From the IMG/VR virus record IMGVR_UViG_3300049491_000611, positions 1 to 34,919 of that record: a stretch of 34,919 nucleotides of DNA; one strand, written 5' to 3'. Within the stretch, counting starts at the first letter, position 1. Every line of letters starts with the position of its first letter. Of the stretch, positions 3,259-34,447 are shown in pieces. The notes under the pieces are model-generated. The model did not search any database. It was not told the origin of the DNA and saw only the letters and a list, made by a program, of their open reading frames with translations. The stretch comes from a virus. Position numbers and translations under genes: made by a program.

Positions 3259-4011
3259 ATGACAAAAATTATTGCACTTAGTAACCACAAGGGAGGTGTC
3301 GGCAAAACAACCTCCACAATAAATATCGGGGCGGGGCTTAACCAGTTAAACAAACGGGTTTTGATAATTGACCTTGACCCACAAGCAAATTTATCCTTGT
3401 CCTTGGGCATCCTAAAGGCTCAAAATAATATTTACGGTGCTTTGCGTGGGGATTACCAAATTGAACCATTTGCCGTAATGGAGGGCTTGGATTTAATACC
3501 ATCCGTGATTGAGTTGTCTGCCATTGAAATTGAATTAAGCACAAAACTTGACCGTGAGTATTATCTAAAGGAAATTATTGACCCCATAAAACACAACTAT
3601 GACTACATTTTGATTGATTGCCCCCCATCAATGGGGCTTTTGACCCTTAATGCTTTCACGGCCAGTGATGAAATTTTAATACCATTGCAGTCTGAGTTTT
3701 TGGCAATGCACGGTCTTTCCGAACTTATAAAAGTGATGAAATTAGTGAACAAACGCCTTAACCCTGCCTTGTTTATTGGTGGCATCTTTTTGACCCAGTT
3801 TGACAGCCGTAAAAAGCTAAACAAAGGTGTGTTTAATGAAGTGGTCAAGATATTCCCTGAGGTGGTTTTTAATACCAAAATACGGGATAACGTGGCCTTA
3901 GCTGATGCCCCAAGTTATAAGCTGGATATTTTCAGGCACAACCCCACCAGCAAGGGTGCGGAGGATTATTTGGAACTTTCAAAGGAATTAATTAAAAAAC
4001 ACTCAAAATGA
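3259..4011 (+). CDS. parA: ParA-family partition ATPase
   Basis: 250 aa, the size of small plasmid and phage ParA proteins without an N-terminal DNA-binding domain. The deviant Walker A motif KGGVGKTT is at residues 11-18, with the signature lysine 11 and P-loop lysine 16. DLDPQ at 38-42 is the Walker A' motif, and YILIDCPP near 116-123 is Walker B with Asp120. ParA ATPases drive segregation of low-copy replicons through a centromere-binding partner; the next gene looks like that partner. Being encoded on the plus strand in the middle of a minus-strand tail operon is unusual and suggests insertion of the module. Such a gene implies that the phage persists as a plasmid, which is inference. Confidence 0.93.
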   Translation: MTKIIALSNHKGGVGKTTSTINIGAGLNQLNKRVLIIDLDPQANLSLSLGILKAQNNIYGALRGDYQIEPFAVMEGLDLIPSVIELSAIEIELSTKLDREYYLKEIIDPIKHNYDYILIDCPPSMGLLTLNAFTASDEILIPLQSEFLAMHGLSELIKVMKLVNKRLNPALFIGGIFLTQFDSRKKLNKGVFNEVVKIFPEVVFNTKIRDNVALADAPSYKLDIFRHNPTSKGAEDYLELSKELIKKHSK

Positions 4012-4328
4012 AAACAGAAACAGTAAATGCAGTTGAAGAAAGTAGGTTTGCGGGTATTTTTAGCGGAAATGATGCCCCGATTGCACCAGTAAAAAATGCT
4101 AAAATTGAGAAAAAAGCACCCATAAAACAGCCTGAGCAGGCCGTAAATGAAAAAAGAACCAACATTGAAATGCCTTTGGTGCTTCACGAAAAGCTTACAA
4201 TTATGGCACATTTGGAGTTTTCAACCATAAAAAGAATAATAAATGAAGCCGTTGAAAAGACAATTGTCCAGTATGAAAAGACACACGGGGAACTAAAACG
4301 AGTACCCAAATCACAACGCACCAAATAA
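4008..4328 (+). CDS. Probable centromere-binding partner of ParA (ribbon-helix-helix-like)
   Basis: 106 aa, overlapping the end of parA by ATGA. Residues 1-45 are charged and low in complexity, probably flexible. Residues 48-85 start with the strand-like EMPLVLHEKL followed by two helices (IMAHLEFSTIKRIINEAVEK), the outline of a ribbon-helix-helix DNA-binding domain. The tail is basic. A flexible arm plus RHH domain behind a short ParA is the plan of type Ib partition partners such as ParG and omega. It probably binds the repeat array upstream of 3006 and represses its own operon. The fold is read from pattern, not from a search. Confidence 0.7.
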   Translation: MKTETVNAVEESRFAGIFSGNDAPIAPVKNAKIEKKAPIKQPEQAVNEKRTNIEMPLVLHEKLTIMAHLEFSTIKRIINEAVEKTIVQYEKTHGELKRVPKSQRTK

Positions 4329-10380: not shown

Positions 10381-11805
10381 TTAGAACGTGATTCTACGAG
10401 TGCGCACGTACCACATCACGAACATACGACAACAGTCCATTAAGTGGTCTTGATTGTTTTGCTCAGGCTCGTCCAACTGCATACCCTGATACACCCTCCA
10501 GCTGTAGTTTTCATACTCCAGTTCAAGATTTACGCTGGATTCCGTGTAAACGGCACGGGCTTTTTGCAAGGATTCAATGCCTCCATTTACTGAGCCAGCA
10601 CCTTTTTTGGCTGAAACACAATTATAACCAGCATTGCGCAATTTTGCGGTTTCCTGCTGGTTTAATTCATTGCCACTGTCGCAAATATTTTCCTTTGTTT
10701 TATCAATTTTTAGGTTGACAAACTGTTGCACCAGTGTTCCATCCATTAAATTCATAGGTTTATAAAGCAACTCTTTGAAGAAAAAAGTACGGTCACCATC
10801 AAATTTGCAGGCAACCACACCAGTACAAGCGGAAAGCCCGAAGTCAGTTGCATAGTATAACGGATAGGGCAAGGCATCAAAAATGTCATCCTTAATTTTG
10901 CCCCAATTTTTGAAAATGCGGTTTGGTTTTTCGGCCTTTTCCCCCTCCCCATAAACCAGCCAATGATATAAACTGCTGGACTTGGTGCGCTCGTTATTTA
11001 AACAGCGTTTCAATTCCATTAAGTCATTGCGGGTGAAGTTTTTTGGATTAATTAAGCGGTTGTAAGTATAGGCCTCAGGCAATGTCAAAAGGCCACTAAA
11101 AACAAGATAGCATCTTTCAACTGGCTGGTAGCTTAAAATTTGTTTTCGGCTTTCGTGAGGGCAAAATGGGTTATCACGAAAGGTTGATTTTAAAGTAATC
11201 GTATTTGCTTTGAGGCGTTCAATGTCCACCCAATGTGACTGCTTTGGATTCCAGTCAAAAATGATGTATTTGCTGGTTCGCTGGGAAAGTTGTTTGTACA
11301 CCTCGTGACTAAAATTGTAAGGCTCATTTATCCAGCAAATGTCTTGGGTCATACCCATTGCATCGTTTTCATCATCCAGCCCTGTGAAGCGTATAAATGA
11401 ACTGTTATGAATAAATGTCCAAGTGTGGTGTGTTTTGTTCCTCACGAAAAACCGCAAAAGGGATTCATCACGCAAAAATTCATCAAATTGCTGGATGTTT
11501 ATTAAACCATCAGCCAGCTGTTTTTTGCGCCCCATTGGGTCACTTAACCACTTAATCCAGTCAGTTTCCACAATTTCACGGCAACTTTTTTGGGTGTCAC
11601 GTAAAATCGTGGCCGTGAGCATTGGGTTTTTGTATAGGTCTAAAAACAAAACTTGGAAGTCACTCCAAGTCTTGCTACTTCGGGAACTCCCGTTTTGTTC
11701 AATTAGTTTGTATTTACCGCATTGAGTGGCTTGCCACGTGTCCTCAAATACCTTAGTGGCATTAAATTTGAATTCTATGTCTTCAATCGGTGTCGCTGTA
11801 GTCAT
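10381..11805 (-). CDS. Terminase large subunit
   Basis: 474 aa from the ATG at 11805 (MTTATPIED); in-frame starts up to 11838 would overlap the small subunit further. The ATPase half has a Walker A-like GSSRSSKT at about residues 39-46 and a Walker B-like stretch DICWINEP near 150. The nuclease half has the RNase H-like acidic motifs YATDFGLS and ICDSGNE. It cuts and pumps DNA into proheads together with portal and TerS. The codons at the start form an ATCGTCATC run that also encodes the Asp-rich end of TerS, a 20-bp or so gene overlap. Confidence 0.93.
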   Translation of the reverse strand: MTTATPIEDIEFKFNATKVFEDTWQATQCGKYKLIEQNGSSRSSKTWSDFQVLFLDLYKNPMLTATILRDTQKSCREIVETDWIKWLSDPMGRKKQLADGLINIQQFDEFLRDESLLRFFVRNKTHHTWTFIHNSSFIRFTGLDDENDAMGMTQDICWINEPYNFSHEVYKQLSQRTSKYIIFDWNPKQSHWVDIERLKANTITLKSTFRDNPFCPHESRKQILSYQPVERCYLVFSGLLTLPEAYTYNRLINPKNFTRNDLMELKRCLNNERTKSSSLYHWLVYGEGEKAEKPNRIFKNWGKIKDDIFDALPYPLYYATDFGLSACTGVVACKFDGDRTFFFKELLYKPMNLMDGTLVQQFVNLKIDKTKENICDSGNELNQQETAKLRNAGYNCVSAKKGAGSVNGGIESLQKARAVYTESSVNLELEYENYSWRVYQGMQLDEPEQNNQDHLMDCCRMFVMWYVRTRRITF

Positions 11806-12211
11806 CGTCATCATCGTCATAATCCAGTGTTTTAACAATATTTACTGTTATTGTAGTACTGGCATTCCCCTGCATTATTTTATCGCCCCCGCTGGTTAAA
11901 TCAGCCTTGATGCTACTACCATTTAGGCGGTGCGCTTCCTCGTCCGTGCAAATGATTTTCATCAGTGCAATTTGTAAACTTGCATTATCTGATTCTGACC
12001 ATTTTTTACGCATTGATATTTTGGTGGCAATTCGGTTGGATTCTAAAAGCTCTTTTAGGGTGTTCGTTTCGTTCGCCTTAGGTGTAAAGAACTCATAAAA
12101 TTTAGTCTTGCCACACGGCAAAACTGCAATAATATCTTCCATAAAAAACAGCCTGTGTTTGACTATTTTTTCCTTTGCCAGTTCAAATATTTCCTTTTTT
12201 TTGTAAGCCAT
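11783..12211 (-). CDS. Terminase small subunit
   Basis: 142 aa from the ATG at 12211 (MAYKKKEIF); an upstream in-frame ATG at 12304 would run into the preceding gene. Residues 8-55 contain a helix-turn-helix-like core (EDIIAVLPCGKTKFYEFF), the middle is helical and probably oligomerises, and the C-terminus is very acidic (seven Asp within ten residues). TerS proteins recognise pac or cos DNA. Its place directly before TerL supports this. The N-terminal ~60 residues are clearly related to the stand-alone 66-aa protein at 15301-15501. Confidence 0.85.
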   Translation of the reverse strand: MAYKKKEIFELAKEKIVKHRLFFMEDIIAVLPCGKTKFYEFFTPKANETNTLKELLESNRIATKISMRKKWSESDNASLQIALMKIICTDEEAHRLNGSSIKADLTSGGDKIMQGNASTTITVNIVKTLDYDDDDDDYSDTD

Positions 12212-12218
12212 TTTTTCA

Positions 12219-12716
12219 TCATTTAGGTTTCCAGCTTTTGGAAAATTCCTTGTCATTGAAAATTTGGGTTTTTGGTATGCCTGCATTGAATAACAGGCGC
12301 ACAACTTCCTCCTTTTCCATCCCCAGTCTATTCATTATTTCCTTGCCATCCACACCAGCATTTACCATTTCTTCCACAATTTTACTCATTTCTAGCACCC
12401 CGTGCGTTCCCCTTGCTCGGTTGTGTCTTATGGTGGCCATTTGTTGCTGACTGGCATCTTTCGGACTTATTACCACAACAGGCACTAAACCCCCAGTTAA
12501 GTCAAATATTTCCTTGTGACCTGAAACTGTCCACCTATGGAAGCCATCAACAATTGTCTTGTCAGGATTTATGACAATGGGCTGTGTCCAGCCATCCTCT
12601 AAAATACTAATTTTCAACAACTTAAGTTCAGGCGGTGCAACCCTGTTCGGGTTGTAGCCATTAGGGGAAAGTTCCTCACGATTAATCCATTGTATATTGT
12701 CTAAGGGCTGTTTCAT
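12219..12716 (-). CDS. ParB-fold protein, IbrB-like partner of PAPS-reductase-like gene
   Basis: 165 aa. An N-terminal ParB/sulfiredoxin-like domain shows NPDKTIVDGFHRWTVSG (residues ~50-66), in which GFHRW takes the place of the nucleotide-binding GERR box of true ParB, and then TIRHNRARGTHG. The C-terminal third is an HTH-like helix pair (IMNRLGMEKEEVVRLLFNAG). It overlaps the PAPS-reductase-like gene by ATGA. The same pair is known in E. coli as IbrA/IbrB, prophage-associated regulators of eib genes, and occurs in many phages. It is not a partition protein in this context. Whether it is a regulator or a nucleotide-dependent DNA-modifying enzyme is open. Confidence 0.75.
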   Translation of the reverse strand: MKQPLDNIQWINREELSPNGYNPNRVAPPELKLLKISILEDGWTQPIVINPDKTIVDGFHRWTVSGHKEIFDLTGGLVPVVVISPKDASQQQMATIRHNRARGTHGVLEMSKIVEEMVNAGVDGKEIMNRLGMEKEEVVRLLFNAGIPKTQIFNDKEFSKSWKPK

Positions 12717-13936
12717 TTTTGCTTGCTTTTAAAATGTTTTGCTTTGTAGTCATTTGTTCCAAACCGCATAACGGCCTCATTGAAAGAGTTTATTCCCAGT
12801 TTTTTTTGGGCGGTTATTGCGTTGCCCTCCAGCGTTGGTGCTGTCCTGCCTTTGAAATCCCCTTTGGTTATTAATTTACAAATAAAAATCCAGCTTGTGC
12901 CAGTTAAAGGGTGGTGTTCACTGTCAGGAATTTGGTCTGTGGTTTTATCATAATGCCTTTTTATGATTGAATTCACATTTTTTTTAACCGCAATAATGTC
13001 CACGGAATCATAACTTTCCAAGATCACTTCACACCATTCTTTATAGGTTAAATTCTCAGGCTTGTTTTGCTTTCCATACCCATAAATTTCAGTGTTAGCA
13101 TACCTCCAAGCCGTGGCCACACCATCCACACGGGCAAGCATTTTGTGCCACATATCAGGCCAACATTCAGCATACATCCACAAGCCCCTCAAAGGTTCTT
13201 CACCAAACGGGGGGCAAACCCTTTGGGAAAGAAACCCGTTGAACATTTTGGTCTTGTTCATAATGTCATAGGAACGGTTATAATCCCAGCCAAATTTGTG
13301 GACACAAAGCCAAACATCTTCACTGCTCATATCATAAATCGGGTGAGCGTGGGAAACGTGGCCATTACGTGCAATGTAATTGTCATTCTTTTTGGTGGAC
13401 ACGGCTTTCATACGCCTGAAACTTTCCTGAGTGCGCACGCCTGTAAGTATAACTGTCAAACCGCTGGAACGTTCAGGCAACAGGGAACTAAAAATTTGAA
13501 ACGACATACCTTTTTCAAATTTGGGGTGTTCCGTTATTAGGTTGTCAATTTTAGGCATTTCACGCACCCATAAATCAGCCTTTGTTTTATCCCAACAGTA
13601 CCAAAACGGTTCTTCATTTGAGCAGGCATTGCGGTGTTTGAATTGCAGGCAGTACCAATTGAATTTGATGCCCCATTCTTTGGCTTTTTCATAAGTCCTC
13701 AGGGCATATTCAATGGTCGGTGGGTGTACGGCTTCTTCATCAAAAAAGTTTATTTCAAAGGAACGGTTTAACTCCTTTGCAACCTTAAGGGTCATATTTA
13801 GCACACAAGTGCTGTCTTTTCCTGCTGAAAAATTGACAATAACATTATCAAAAGCCTCAAATAAATATTTTATTCGGGCGCACCCCTCGTCAAACACGTT
13901 GGTTTCGTTGTAGTCCTTTTGTCTTGTGGTACTCAT
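12713..13936 (-). CDS. PAPS-reductase-family protein (DUF3440/IbrA-like)
   Basis: 407 aa. The PP-loop SAGKDST is at residues 37-43, typical of adenosine-phosphosulfate reductases and related ATP pyrophosphatases. Later come RTQESFRRMKAV and HPIYDMSSEDVWLCV, then the long DUF3440-like C-terminal half with QRVCPPFGEEPLRGLWMY. It lacks the C-terminal ECGLH motif of classical reductases. DndC, which installs sulfur in phosphorothioate DNA, belongs to the same superfamily, but this protein is closer in form to IbrA. It is coupled to a cupin gene upstream (TAATG) and a ParB-fold gene downstream (ATGA). The substrate is unknown. Confidence 0.85.
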   Translation of the reverse strand: MSTTRQKDYNETNVFDEGCARIKYLFEAFDNVIVNFSAGKDSTCVLNMTLKVAKELNRSFEINFFDEEAVHPPTIEYALRTYEKAKEWGIKFNWYCLQFKHRNACSNEEPFWYCWDKTKADLWVREMPKIDNLITEHPKFEKGMSFQIFSSLLPERSSGLTVILTGVRTQESFRRMKAVSTKKNDNYIARNGHVSHAHPIYDMSSEDVWLCVHKFGWDYNRSYDIMNKTKMFNGFLSQRVCPPFGEEPLRGLWMYAECWPDMWHKMLARVDGVATAWRYANTEIYGYGKQNKPENLTYKEWCEVILESYDSVDIIAVKKNVNSIIKRHYDKTTDQIPDSEHHPLTGTSWIFICKLITKGDFKGRTAPTLEGNAITAQKKLGINSFNEAVMRFGTNDYKAKHFKSKQK

Positions 13937-14739
13937 TATTTCGTTCTGATTGATTCAATTTCGCTGGCCGATACTCCATTAACCATTGTGCGGTTTATCA
14001 TTGGATGACTGGTGTCAGTTGCCCCGAAATCGCTATCAGGGTGAAAGGCTACCACATTCATAACTTTATCCTCAAAGGTTTTGAATGAATGCGAACCATC
14101 TTCATACTGTTTGCCATCAATTCCGAGGCTGTACCCTAAACCATTCCACTCCTTTATAACAAAAATCATCCCCTCAGTTAGTTTTAAATTTCCAAAGGGT
14201 GTAATGCAAAGCCCCTCACCTGAAACCACGAGGCCAATTCTGTGGCTTGGGTGGGTGTGCATAGTTTGGTCAATATTGGTCGGGAAGTGTAAGTGATTAA
14301 AACAAGGGTCACCCAGTTTAACGGGTGGCAATAAAAGGCTGTCGGTGCATCCATCAATGTATTTCAACCGCCCTTTTTCCTCAATAGGACCACCAGTGGT
14401 AAAGTATGCTGAATAGTTGGTTTCAGGATAAACCCCTTTGGTGTGCAACACTTCCACAACTATCATTTTGCCCTCGTTTTCCTTAATTTCAAAATCACCT
14501 ATTGAAGTAAAATACATCCCCTTTGAAAGTATGGTAACGGGGCGGGCGGGGTGGAATAAAACCACCGTTCCAGCACTCACGAAACCAAAATAACTGCGGT
14601 CAGGTTTTGGCTTTAGGCCGTGGCCGTTTATTACATTGTAATAGGCAATAGGAAAGCTTTTATGTTCGCTTTCATCAAATAATAATCCTGCTTTAGTGTT
14701 GTCAAAACAGGCGAACGATTTTGTTTCATCAGTTATCAT
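13936..14739 (-). CDS. Cupin-domain protein (bicupin)
   Basis: 267 aa, apparently two cupin barrels. The C-terminal one has the metal-binding pattern: HTHPSHRIGLVVSGEG (residues ~160-175) supplies the H-x-H set and the following turn, and VVAFHPDSDFG near 232 supplies the later His. The N-terminal half has cupin-like strands (YFGFVSAGTVVLFHP) but no obvious metal His cluster. Cupins may be oxygenases, isomerases or sensors. Sitting in a four-gene coupled cassette between a ParB-fold and a PAPS-reductase-like gene, it may act on the same substrate. That is inference; function unknown. Confidence 0.75.
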   Translation of the reverse strand: MITDETKSFACFDNTKAGLLFDESEHKSFPIAYYNVINGHGLKPKPDRSYFGFVSAGTVVLFHPARPVTILSKGMYFTSIGDFEIKENEGKMIVVEVLHTKGVYPETNYSAYFTTGGPIEEKGRLKYIDGCTDSLLLPPVKLGDPCFNHLHFPTNIDQTMHTHPSHRIGLVVSGEGLCITPFGNLKLTEGMIFVIKEWNGLGYSLGIDGKQYEDGSHSFKTFEDKVMNVVAFHPDSDFGATDTSHPMINRTMVNGVSASEIESIRTK

Positions 14740-14741
14740 AG

Positions 14742-15326
14742 CTATTTTTTTTGATTATAAACCCGTATTATTTCCATCAGTGCATCTTCAATTTTCTCAA
14801 ATGCGAATTCAATTTTTATGCTATTCAAAAGGTCAATTAATTTTATTTTGTTTTGGTGTTCCATAATCAGTTCAAAGGTGCTGAAACCATCATCGGAGGC
14901 ACGGCCAGCACTTGCCGTGGTTTCCTCGTTATCTTCATCAATATTAAACATTTCACTGTCAGGATTCCACACTGGCAACCCCCATTCCTCCAGCAAGTCA
15001 GTATCCCATTCGTTGGCCAAAGCCTCCCAATCCCATTCACCACCAGCCACATTATCCTTAATCAAAAATTCCCGTTCCTGCTCAGGGGTTAAATCCTTTG
15101 CAATGATAACGGGAATTTCAGTGAGGCCAGCTTCAATGCAGGCTTTGTATCGCATATTACCACCCAAAATAATGAAGTCTTTATTCACCACAATGGGGCG
15201 TATTTCAAGCATTTGCGGGAAATCAGTTATGGATTGTACCAGTTTTTTAAATTTGTCATCCTTAATAATGCGGGGGTTATTTGGATTGACTTTTATTTTA
15301 CTAACTTTCAATATCTGTACGTTCAT
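14742..15326 (-). CDS. ParB-fold protein, second copy in cassette
   Basis: 194 aa. The N-terminal ParB/Srx domain reads PNNPRIIKDDKFKKLVQSI, then IILGGNMRYKACIEAGLTEI, then LTPEQEREFLIKDNVAGGEW and the acidic WDWEALANEWD. Proteins with exactly this layout are frequent beside phage methylases and terminases. The rest is acidic (DEDNEETTAS) and ends in a helix pair. The GNMR motif replaces the GERR box of CTP-dependent ParB. It overlaps the 66-aa gene upstream by 26 bp and is 2 bp from the cupin gene. Role unknown; a nucleotide-dependent phosphotransfer or nicking activity is possible for the fold. Confidence 0.82.
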   Translation of the reverse strand: MNVQILKVSKIKVNPNNPRIIKDDKFKKLVQSITDFPQMLEIRPIVVNKDFIILGGNMRYKACIEAGLTEIPVIIAKDLTPEQEREFLIKDNVAGGEWDWEALANEWDTDLLEEWGLPVWNPDSEMFNIDEDNEETTASAGRASDDGFSTFELIMEHQNKIKLIDLLNSIKIEFAFEKIEDALMEIIRVYNQKK

Positions 15327-15501
15327 ATTGCTTGGTTAAATTGATTAAAACTGTGTATCGTTCTGAACCAACTGGGAAGCATTTAAAAAATGCACGCACA
15401 TCAATTGGCAAGTGGCCAAAAAGGTTTGTTATTCTGTCAATTTTCAACTCAATAATTTTGTCTTTGGCAATTTCAAAAATTTGTTCTTTGTTTAGTTCCA
15501 T
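15301..15501 (-). CDS. Stand-alone TerS N-terminal-like DNA-binding domain
   Basis: 66 aa. It aligns without large gaps to the N-terminal ~60 residues of the TerS at 11783-12211: EQIFEIAKDKIIELKIDRIT against KEIFELAKEKIVKHRLFFME, then LFGHLPIDVRAFFKCF against IIAVLPCGKTKFYEFF. It therefore looks like a duplicated DNA-binding domain that has lost the oligomerisation part. It is the first gene after the terminator at 15539-15562 and so may open the packaging operon. It might regulate packaging by competing for TerS sites or bind its own promoter. Function is inferred. Confidence 0.8.
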   Translation of the reverse strand: MELNKEQIFEIAKDKIIELKIDRITNLFGHLPIDVRAFFKCFPVGSERYTVLINLTKQYERTDIES

Positions 15502-15909: not shown

Positions 15910-16641
15910 TTATAATTTAACGAAATTGTTTTTCTTTTTGTGGTTCAAAATGTTTTCAAAGGCGGTGCGATAGTCTTTTTCGTGGGTACATTTTGGTATT
16001 TTCAAAATATTGTTTCTGATTGTGGTACGTTGCTCTAAATCAGCTTTATTGAAAAGGACATAAACTGCATACACAAAGGCTTTAGTGGTTTTAAAAGACA
16101 CATCCTCTAAGTTATTTATGTAGTCAGCAATTTCAATTGCATTTTCTTGAAACGGAAAATCCCTGCCTTTTTTTATGTCGTGGGATTTGGCCTTGAAACC
16201 AAAGCAAAGGTGAAGTGAATTGGTGAAGCCAAATTTGTTTTTTTCCTCGTACTTCAAAAGTTTACGGTAATTGTCCATTCCTTGTTCAGCGTAACTTTTT
16301 ACGAAGTCAACAAGTTGCCAATGGTCTTGACTGGAGTTTAAAGCCATCGTTTTTCCAATTACGTTGCCAGTGATTATTTCATAAGTAATCGGCCAGCCTA
16401 AATCCCTGAGGGCGCAAAAACGGTGCTGGCCATCAATGATGTTAAAGTCCTTATCAATCAAAATGGGGCGACCAGCTATGACACCCCATTCACGGTAACT
16501 TTCTTTTATTTTTTCAACGTTCTTTTTGTTGATTTCCCTGTTTGCCCTTAGGAAAGTAAATTTTGCATAATCCTTTGTGCTGTTTTTTGCTGGTGTTTCC
16601 ATTTCAAGCGTTTCCGCTGTAAATCCGTTTAATGCTGTCAT
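15910..16641 (-). CDS. ParB-fold protein, third copy, with helical C-terminal domain
   Basis: 243 aa. Residues ~20-95 form a ParB-like nuclease domain: REINKKNVEKIKESYREWG, PILIDKDFNIIDGQHRFCAL, then WPITYEI. IIDGQHRF is the counterpart of the GERR box and matches the ParB-fold proteins often found in phages and mobile elements. The C-terminal 150 residues are helical with basic ends and no known motif. It is separated from the other two ParB-fold genes by a strong terminator, so it is probably expressed with the MBL-fold group. Function unknown. Confidence 0.8.
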   Translation of the reverse strand: MTALNGFTAETLEMETPAKNSTKDYAKFTFLRANREINKKNVEKIKESYREWGVIAGRPILIDKDFNIIDGQHRFCALRDLGWPITYEIITGNVIGKTMALNSSQDHWQLVDFVKSYAEQGMDNYRKLLKYEEKNKFGFTNSLHLCFGFKAKSHDIKKGRDFPFQENAIEIADYINNLEDVSFKTTKAFVYAVYVLFNKADLEQRTTIRNNILKIPKCTHEKDYRTAFENILNHKKKNNFVKL

Positions 16642-33767: not shown

Positions 33768-34322
33768 TTATAGATTTAGGTAAATATCGTTCAATTCCTC
33801 TTGTCGTATGCCTAAATAAACCCGTGTCGTGCGTAGGTCGCTATGATTAAACAACTCGGATAAATAAATTAGACTTGATTCGGTTTCTTGGTTGTTTTTA
33901 TAAACCCTACGGCCAAAGGATTTTCTTAGTGTGTGGGTGCTTATGTTAAGCCCGCTTTTTACATCTTTTTCAAAAACCTTTTTGAGCATTCGGTTTAAAT
34001 GCCAAATTGTAACGACCCCGCCTTTTTGAGTAATAAAAGGGCTACCAGTATAATCGGGTTCAATTATTGAATGTATGGCTTCGTTTATGGCAATTTTTTT
34101 CTTTTTGTCCGTTTTTTGCTCCTTAACAAAAAGGGTTTCTTTTTTTAGGTCGTCCCAAGTTAATTTCAAAACATCGGAACACCGCAAACCAGTATTTAAA
34201 GAAATGGTAATGTAATCCGCAATAAGTTTTTGCTTTGGGTTTTTGCGCAACCTTAAAACTACTCCAACGATATAATCAAAATCTAAGTAGTCGCATTTTG
34301 TGTTTGAATCCTTCAATGACAT
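33768..34322 (-). CDS. Minimal tyrosine recombinase
   Basis: 184 aa from the ATG at 34322 (MSLKDSNTK); a longer frame to 34412 runs through the promoter box. It is a catalytic domain: Arg47 in TGLRCSD, a Lys-rich beta hairpin (KTDKKKKI, ~71-77), His130-x-x-Arg133 in HTLRKSFGRR, His160 in LFNHSD and the nucleophile Tyr169 in TTRVYLG. The usual N-terminal core-binding and arm-binding domains are missing, as in FimB/FimE-size recombinases. It could integrate the phage, invert DNA or resolve dimers. The lox-like inverted repeat 126 bp upstream is a likely substrate. Confidence 0.88.
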   Translation of the reverse strand: MSLKDSNTKCDYLDFDYIVGVVLRLRKNPKQKLIADYITISLNTGLRCSDVLKLTWDDLKKETLFVKEQKTDKKKKIAINEAIHSIIEPDYTGSPFITQKGGVVTIWHLNRMLKKVFEKDVKSGLNISTHTLRKSFGRRVYKNNQETESSLIYLSELFNHSDLRTTRVYLGIRQEELNDIYLNL

Positions 34323-34337
34323 AATTTCCTTTTTGAC

Positions 34338-34345
34338 CAAAGATA
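34338..34345 (-). promoter_or_regulatory. -7 box of the recombinase gene
   Basis: TATCTTTG on the minus strand, 15 bp before the ATG at 34322, so the leader would be very short or absent. No TTTG at -33. The 60 bp upstream are A/T-rich. Confidence 0.45.
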
Positions 34346-34447
34346 AACAAAAATGTACACTTTTAACGTATTTAGAATAAAATTGCACATTTACAAATTG
34401 CAAAAAAATCAAATTTTTTTAACTACCTAAAAATCAGCCCCCATTCT

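Follow-up and report, generated by a model that had tools for sequence, protein, structure and literature searches.

What is the function of a unit of four genes, two encoding ParB-fold proteins, one a cupin, and one a PAPS-reductase-like enzyme, at the start of the packaging genes of a phage? This question is raised by IMG/VR record IMGVR_UViG_3300049491_000611, the 34,919 nucleotides of which are hereafter called the window.

The four genes and their products

The cassette and the terminase genes that follow it are all on the minus strand. The order from 5' to 3' is ParB1 (14742..15326), the bicupin (13936..14739), IbrA (12713..13936), and IbrB (12219..12716). ParB1 and the bicupin gene are separated by 2 bp, the bicupin and IbrA genes overlap by 1 bp (TAATG), and IbrA and IbrB overlap by 4 bp (ATGA). 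An open reading frame (ORF) at 11783..12211 (ATG at 12211), with no family match in Pfam or PHROG, begins after a further 7 bp and is, by its position only, the probable small terminase subunit (TerS). The large subunit gene (TerL; 10381..~11802), the start codon of which was picked by inspection, overlaps this ORF and encodes a Terminase_3 protein (PF04466, 8e-9; phrog_2, 6e-19). Therefore, the four genes abut or overlap and run into the terminase genes, as the first-pass annotation had stated. An Rfam scan returned no match. Two other candidates were dropped: a 66-aa ORF overlapping ParB1, which had a weak likeness to a TerS N terminus (24%) and was not conserved upstream in other loci, and a ParB-like DGQHR gene (15910-16641) considered as a fifth member, which was rarely near the cassette (only in locus L028).

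ParB1 has the ParB/sulfiredoxin fold (ParB_N, PF02195, E 4e-9 in Pfam) and a C-terminal extension of approximately 80 aa. It matched phrog_498, the ParB part of a DNA methyltransferase (7e-30), and the PADLOC Type II MTase model (2e-9). IbrB showed a weak ParB_N match and a match to phrog_2159, the IbrB family (2.2e-67), which is present in 236 cultured phage records. Family alignments revealed that the GGNMR box of ParB1 and the DGFHRW box of IbrB are conserved. Pfam, phrog_2159, and these alignments agree with the earlier assignment of a ParB fold with GNMR and GFHRW boxes to the outer two proteins. Both differ from the canonical ParB CTPase clamp: GNMR and GFHR replace the GERR box, and Pfam found ParB_N alone, with no HTH or C-terminal dimerization domain.

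IbrA matched DUF3440 (PF11922, 1.1e-11), PAPS_reduct (PF01507, 1.5e-9), and phrog_2302 (1.4e-73). Its fold matches were FAD synthase, PAPS reductase, and ATP sulfurylase, it shares the PP-loop fold of CysH, and the SxGKDS PP-loop motif was invariant in 95 IbrA sequences. These results support its initial identification as a PP-loop relative of PAPS reductase, an ATP-pyrophosphatase. A protein with both DUF3440 and PAPS_reduct, followed directly by an IbrB-type gene, represents an IbrA/IbrB module. The Escherichia coli IbrA/IbrB pair, which activates eib genes, has the same two neighbors, a DUF3440 PP-loop protein and then a DGFHR ParB-fold protein, but does not include the added bicupin and further ParB-fold protein of the window. 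E. coli-type pairs have reportedly been associated with a gene-activation phenotype only.

A PAPS-reductase relative raises the possibility of sulfur chemistry, either as an auxiliary metabolic gene (AMG) of the PAPS-reductase type or as Dnd-like phosphorothioation. The weak PAPS_reduct and DndC-type matches (PADLOC DndC, 3.8e-8) point in this direction, and authors commonly label such genes as cysH-like AMGs. However, CysH requires a catalytic cysteine and DndC requires its own cysteines, whereas no cysteine was invariant in the 95 IbrA sequences (the best column reached 92%). Furthermore, DndA, DndD, and DndE were absent from the operon, which contains only ParB1, the cupin, IbrA, IbrB, and then terminase. 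Sulfur chemistry is therefore unsupported. IbrA is also constantly paired with ParB-fold proteins, and we consider a sulfur system to be very unlikely.

The AlphaFold (AF2) model of the cupin confirmed a true bicupin with a double beta-barrel (mean pLDDT 90.3). A metal site is predicted in the C-terminal barrel from H161, H163, and H217 (HxH...H motif), which are invariant in 134 phage and chromosomal relatives together with E120, C131, D133, Q158, R167, H233, and H245; the assignment of a metal-type bicupin between the ParB-fold genes was upheld. The nearest solved folds in the PDB were DUF861/(S)-ureidoglycine aminohydrolase bicupins (Z 17-18). However, identity to these was 12-14%, and no chain with a solved structure gave a convincing sequence match. 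Fold matches in BFVD were poor, Pfam returned Cupin_2 at 0.008, below the cut-off, with a weak, sub-threshold match to AraC_binding, and no PHROG matched.

Chromosomal relatives of the bicupin occur in many phyla and share its active site. They often adjoin other PP-loop enzymes (Asn-synthase in 18 loci and another PP-loop protein in 10 loci), and some adjoin sialic-acid-type sugar genes. Since these relatives act outside phages, some beside such sugar genes, the cupin may act on a small metabolite. The cassette as a whole might modify a target other than DNA, such as host tRNA, the nucleotide pool, a small metabolite, or a signal, in order to aid infection or block defense. The PP-loop fold relatives, which include FAD synthase, tRNA lysidine synthetase, and tRNA thiolases, and the location of chromosomal cupins in sugar and amide-ligase operons are consistent with this explanation. 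However, two ParB-fold partners and a fixed place before terminase would be odd for work on tRNA or metabolites, and the exchange with DpdA/Que operons described below favors DNA. We regard a non-DNA target as unlikely.

Recurrence ahead of terminases

This IbrA was found in 137 IMG/VR loci, 89 of which were non-redundant. Partner counts were limited to the 44 non-redundant loci with enough flank: IbrB was present in 44/44, the first ParB in 40/44, and the cupin in 39/44. In some loci, the cupin gene was shifted behind IbrB, yet retained. The search for the four-gene order that the first-pass annotation had called for thus recovered all four genes in 36 of these 44 loci. The recurrence of this order in dozens of non-redundant loci, from unrelated uncultured phages, far exceeds chance. 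Terminases of at least three kinds come after the cassette, and the relatedness of the cassettes largely fails to track that of the terminases; therefore, the cassette moves as one unit into a single position. No description of the four-gene combination was found in a literature search that covered only a minority of subscription papers.

We also assessed whether ParB1 and IbrB are centromere-binding or genome-tagging proteins for a phage ParA or for terminase. The window encodes a ParA-type ATPase (3259-4011), and terminases come after the cassette across the examined loci. However, the ParA gene, at a distance of 8 kb, is followed by a partner of its own, ParB1 and IbrB are missing the HTH and dimerization domains, a bicupin and PP-loop enzyme have no partition role, and the adjacent terminases are of different kinds. 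A role in partition or packaging is highly improbable.

The accompanying enzymes vary among phages. Extra members include a second PP-loop protein, an SDR, or an MTase-like protein in Arthrobacter and Bacillus phages, and a cupin is beside or fused to IbrB in other phages. Phages XCL1123 and Gaia have the order PAPS reductase, ectoine-synthase cupin, and ParB, with the cupin beside or fused to IbrB, next to IbrA. This cupin is a small one-barrel Ectoine_synth type, unlike the bicupin of the window, and homology between the bicupin and the XCL1123 protein was rejected because no sequence kinship was detectable.

Exchange with DpdA operons in cultured phages

IbrA/IbrB genes are present in more than 200 sequenced cultured phages, in which they are annotated as 'PAPS reductase', implying auxiliary metabolism, or as 'co-activator'. 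Many of these pairs are located in the replication region next to a helicase and not next to terminase. In Phlyer (Pipefishvirus), Shrooms (Laroyevirus), and Taranis (Taranisvirus), ParB-IbrA-IbrB is directly before or close to terminase, as in the window. However, these sets do not contain a cupin, and the extra slot encodes a small, MTase-like, or transporter-like protein. The cupin family was absent from approximately 50,700 cultured-phage records in three queries. Of the parts that were initially regarded as new, the cupin is a new part of the cassette, whereas the second ParB and the link to terminase already exist in Phlyer, Shrooms, and Taranis.

In Bclasvirinae mycobacteriophages, ParB-IbrA-IbrB fills the exact slot that relatives give to a DpdA/Que operon. 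ItsyBitsy1, Quesadilla, Heath, Phlyer, Oline, and Imvubu were compared (Rosebush and Orion were left out). Upstream of TerL and portal, ItsyBitsy1 and Quesadilla carry ParB-DpdA-QueC-QueD-QueE-FolE, Heath carries ParB-DpdA, and Phlyer carries ParB-IbrA-IbrB; Oline and Imvubu carry no comparable genes there. The TerL proteins were 52-62% identical to Phlyer TerL and the portals were homologous. The upstream ParB is also homologous, that of Phlyer being 47-56% identical to those of the DpdA operons. In Fusobacterium phage phiFN37, IbrA-IbrB is approximately 3 kb from ParB-DpdA-preQ0 transporter; the ParB1 family HMM matched the ParB beside this DpdA at 1.8e-44, and the same HMM also matches other ParB groups. 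In Rosebush, of the same species as ItsyBitsy1, the DpdA/Que operon produces 7-deazaguanine DNA, and the modified base is dPreQ0 (PMC6884629).

DpdA operons with a DpdB-like ParB resemble the cassette in slot and upstream ParB, and some include a PP-loop enzyme, QueC. In contrast, the window cassette does not contain a TGT-type transglycosylase or preQ0 genes; no DpdA-type TGT enzyme was found among the ten proteins scanned (the cassette and its neighbors). Since DpdA operons occupy the same slot, the pre-terminase position may merely mirror late-operon timing, and the earlier proposal that the cassette marks DNA for packaging is not supported by it.

The slot exchange also bears on a regulatory role, in which IbrA/IbrB, with ParB1 and the cupin as nucleotide or ligand sensors (the cupin being AraC-like), activate late or lysogeny transcription. 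This explanation follows an annotation tradition ('co-activator of prophage gene expression') and is consistent with a location where the late operon begins and with the cupin's weak, sub-threshold AraC_binding similarity. However, the Pfam scan of the four proteins detected neither an HTH nor any other DNA-binding domain, the invariant active site of the cupin is enzyme-like and common to non-phage homologues, IbrA keeps the full PP-loop motif, and the slot is swapped with an enzymatic DNA-modification operon. We consider a regulatory module to be unlikely.

A proposed role in DNA modification

DNA modification is the best-supported role of the four-gene unit because of the slot exchange with DpdA operons, the likeness of ParB1 to methyltransferase and DpdA-operon ParB proteins, and the recurring tailoring enzymes. 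It is also favored by the steady association of the genes across loci, the proximity of IbrA-IbrB to a DpdA set in phiFN37, the cupins beside or fused to IbrB in other phages, and the PP-loop neighbors of the chromosomal cupins. The same evidence supports the modification part of the initial suggestion of a nucleotide- or sulfur-dependent DNA modification; the sulfur part did not hold. The cassette is probably a post-replicative DNA base-modification system, for which we infer the DNA substrate, adenylation, cupin reaction, and protection. Against this reading, no recognized glycosylase, transglycosylase, or methyltransferase was found in the window cassette, and the many cultured-phage pairs next to a helicase and the activity of cupin relatives outside phages also weigh against it. 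IbrA may perform the ATP-driven adenylation of a carbonyl or carboxyl group, carried either by a DNA base or by a small molecule destined for attachment to that base, and the bicupin, as a metal enzyme, may make or finish the attached group. ParB1 and IbrB, as nucleotide-binding ParB-fold proteins, may load these enzymes onto DNA; a similar service to DpdA has been proposed for the ParB-like DpdB. Expressed first in the packaging operon, the cassette would alter DNA shortly before encapsidation and may thereby protect it in the next host.

A related combination is known. The PP-loop ligase CmoY hypermodifies DNA, and its genes are often near ParBc genes (PMC12783734). The CmoA/CmoX/CmoY system of 5-carboxymethylcytosine hypermodification resembles the window cassette in its PP-loop ligase and ParBc neighbors and, in the proposed reading, in acting on phage DNA (PMC12783734). 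However, the window cassette does not contain the CmoX methyltransferase or CmoA, and IbrA is of the PAPS-reductase type, not the asparagine-synthetase type. More tentatively, we suggest that the cassette may represent an undescribed chemistry, in which an adenylating PP-loop enzyme and metal cupin with two ParB-fold loaders act on phage DNA before packaging, and that this chemistry may be widespread in uncultured phages and also explain IbrA/IbrB.

The context of IbrA/IbrB points to DNA modification as a third role besides 'PAPS reductase' and 'co-activator'. The cupin-bearing form appears to be common in uncultured phages and is unseen in cultured phages; therefore, it may conceal both a new modified base and a counter-defense trait. 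Phlyer and other cultured phages make the DNA-modification role testable, Oline serving as the natural null and ItsyBitsy1/Rosebush as the positive control.

The cassette in the window and its conservation

Family searches of the window, a 34.9-kb record of an uncultured virus, identified HK97-type capsid, portal, terminase, RecT, and integrase genes. The cassette genes are all encoded on the minus strand: ParB1, the first ParB-fold gene (15326-14742); the bicupin gene (14739-13936), after a 2-bp gap; the gene of the PP-loop protein (13936-12713), joined to the bicupin gene by TAATG; and that of the second ParB-fold protein (12716-12219), joined by ATGA. The ORF at the TerS position starts 7 bp further on and is followed by TerL. 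The tight coupling of these genes to the packaging genes, as described in the first-pass annotation, was confirmed. Family searches also placed the last two cassette genes in the IbrA/IbrB pair, which is already known. The GERR box is replaced by GNMR in ParB1 and GFHR in IbrB, as previously noted, and neither protein has the HTH or dimerization domain of chromosomal ParB. Models of phage ParB families and of the ParB portions of DNA methyltransferases came closest to ParB1. The nucleotide bound by proteins of the ParB-fold superfamily, be it ATP, GTP, or CTP, differs between members (PMC12704722).

A 66-aa ORF (15301-15501, minus strand) overlaps the start of ParB1. Its resemblance to the TerS N-terminus is weak (one comparison; 24% identity, E 2e-6), and it is not kept upstream of ParB1 at other loci. 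Two small genes upstream of the cassette, a third ParB-like protein is encoded (15910-16641, minus strand; DGQHR, DndB-like). A ParA-type ATPase gene (3259-4011, plus strand) is directly followed by that of a 106-aa protein (4008-4328, plus strand), which is ribbon-helix-helix-like by eye and had no Pfam match. An integrase gene is located near 33768-34412. Together, these three genes suggest a temperate or plasmid-like phage.

Searches of viral contigs with the cupin and with IbrA yielded 36 and 33 loci, respectively. The order ParB1-cupin-IbrA-IbrB-(TerS)-TerL was kept in nearly all sufficiently long loci, and every sufficiently long locus from the IbrA-only search contained the cupin. With an IbrA profile search, which took no account of the other genes, the number of IbrA loci rose to 137 (89 non-redundant at 90% IbrA identity). 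Among the 44 loci whose flanks reached 3.5 kb or more upstream and 3 kb or more downstream, IbrB was present in 44, ParB1 in 40, and the cupin in 39, a share somewhat favored because part of the locus set was first found via the cupin. All four genes, the arrangement that the first-pass annotation had proposed to look for in other phage genomes, were present in 36 of these 44 loci. In L091, L096, L098, and L139-L141, the cupin was shifted behind IbrB yet retained.

Extra genes occurred repeatedly inside the cassette. In many loci (L005, L016, L022, L027, L041, L049, L054, L057, L061, and L064), the cupin and IbrA were separated by the gene of a second PP-loop protein of the PAPS-reductase type. 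A short-chain dehydrogenase gene was also seen: in L037 and L071-L073 it came ahead of a shorter cupin, and in an Endozoicomonas genome (L196) after IbrB, directly before the cupin. A protein of approximately 165 aa with a YWEMGxPI motif and no match in Pfam, PHROG, or PADLOC was encoded between IbrA and IbrB (L008, L058, L063, L078-L080, L082, L083, and L122).

In 72 non-redundant loci, the first long ORFs downstream of the cassette matched the large-terminase families Terminase_3 (36), Terminase_6N (40, overlapping with Terminase_3), GpA-type (18), and TerL_ATPase (2). A large terminase was located downstream in at least 58 of the 72 loci if the Terminase_6N and GpA matches are disjoint. Over locus pairs, the similarity of IbrA correlated with that of IbrB (Spearman 0.73) and less with that of TerL (0.37). 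Of the 1679 pairs in which IbrA was similar, 1187 showed no detectable similarity between their TerL candidates, which include a few long non-terminase ORFs. The weaker correlation and these dissimilar pairs indicate that the cassette swaps partners and retains its position; judging from these comparisons, one terminase is not simply co-inherited with it.

The PP-loop enzyme and the bicupin

The SxGKDS PP-loop signature and D66, E68, G166, R168, E171, S172, R175, P199, D202, D207, and R239 were invariant in 95 IbrA sequences, including those of eleven cultured phages. No cysteine was invariant in this set (top column, 92%). The AlphaFold model of IbrA (mean pLDDT 78) matched FAD synthase, PAPS reductase, ATP sulfurylase, TilS, and sulfur transferases. 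Conservation and fold together fit an adenylating enzyme, and the cysteine pattern argues against IbrA as either a PAPS reductase or a sulfur carrier of the DndC type. The sulfur-dependent chemistry initially considered is similarly disfavored.

The bicupin between the ParB-fold genes gave a confident AlphaFold model (mean pLDDT 90.3). The closest solved folds were DUF861/(S)-ureidoglycine aminohydrolase proteins (Z 17-18, identity 12-14%). Since many other bicupins had nearly equal scores, this match informs on the fold, not on the reaction. E120, R124, Y127, C131, D133, N148, Q158, H161, H163, R167, H217, H233, and H245 were invariant or nearly so in 134 cupin relatives. They point to the C-terminal barrel as the likely carrier of a metal site (H161, H163, and H217, as judged from the cupin motif). 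Of the metal-type bicupin originally described, the double-barrel fold is borne out by the model and the metal site is likely.

The cupin fell below every curated threshold in Pfam, PHROGs, and NCBIfam, and its family was absent from 50,697 cultured-phage records. It was present in 72 bacterial-genome loci, with IbrA adjoining in five and not in most others. Asparagine synthase was among the commonest chromosomal neighbors (18 loci), as was a further PP-loop protein (10 loci, mostly of Lewinella-type Bacteroidota), recognized by an SGGxDS motif rather than by Pfam. In Maricaulis, the commonest neighbors were NeuB and sugar-nucleotide transferase-like, ATP-grasp-like, and sulfotransferase-like proteins, several named by sequence inspection. 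In the tree, chromosomal and phage forms were interleaved with few changes, and a supported clade comprised 40 phage sequences, among them the window cupin. Therefore, the pairing of this cupin with a PP-loop enzyme also occurs outside phages. In Maricaulis and relatives (L142-L160), the cupin homologues lie near sugar genes of the NeuB type and a gene resembling a sulfotransferase; these possibly represent a glycan pathway that might point to the cupin substrate. As part of an operon, asparagine synthase and a zinc-ribbon/Toprim-like protein were encoded near the chromosomal cupin in L177-L209 (mostly Competibacteraceae), L171, L172, and L211.

A possible role in DNA modification

In mycobacteriophages of the Bclasvirinae, the genes after the slot, the gene position before terminase, are homologous (terminase, RuvC, portal, and MuF-type protein); TerL and portal are 52-62% and 51-57% identical, respectively, to those of Phlyer. 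The slot contains ParB-DpdA-QueC-QueD-QueE-FolE in ItsyBitsy1 (first gene annotated as HTH and homologous to the ParBs) and Quesadilla, ParB-DpdA in Heath, and ParB-gp2-gp3-IbrA-IbrB in Phlyer; Oline and Imvubu have neither the DpdA-type nor the IbrA-IbrB set there. The slot ParB is homologous in the former four phages (47-56% identity to that of Phlyer). Rosebush DNA contains dPreQ0 (PMC6884629). In Fusobacterium phage phiFN37 (L219), approximately 3 kb separates IbrA-IbrB from a ParB-DpdA-preQ0 transporter set. Phages of Arthrobacter and Bacillus have, with the IbrA-IbrB set, a methyltransferase-annotated protein that had no Pfam match. Hypermodification of phage cytosine by a PP-loop ligase, CmoY, has recently been demonstrated, and ParBc genes are often close by (PMC12783734). 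Because of the slot exchange with DpdA operons, phiFN37, the methyltransferase-annotated partner, and the CmoY precedent, DNA modification appears to be the most economical reading of the role of the cassette. In phiFN37, the two gene sets lie approximately 7 kb or less apart.

Known and new components

The first-pass annotation regarded the cupin, the additional ParB-fold protein, and the terminase link as seemingly new. This appears to hold for the bicupin family. ParB1 and the terminase neighborhood are visible in cultured phages, and we found no discussion of them within the literature searched. What appears to be undescribed is ParB1-bicupin-IbrA-IbrB as a conserved cassette, together with the bicupin family in it, how widely it is spread, and the way it alternates with DpdA operons in the slot; the likelihood that its chemistry is new as well is substantial. 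XCL1123 and Gaia also have cupins adjoining or fused to IbrB; however, these belong to a different cupin family. In Mycobacterium phage Gaia (L222, 6308-7207), an ectoine-synthase-type cupin is naturally fused to an IbrB-like ParB domain and adjoins IbrA.
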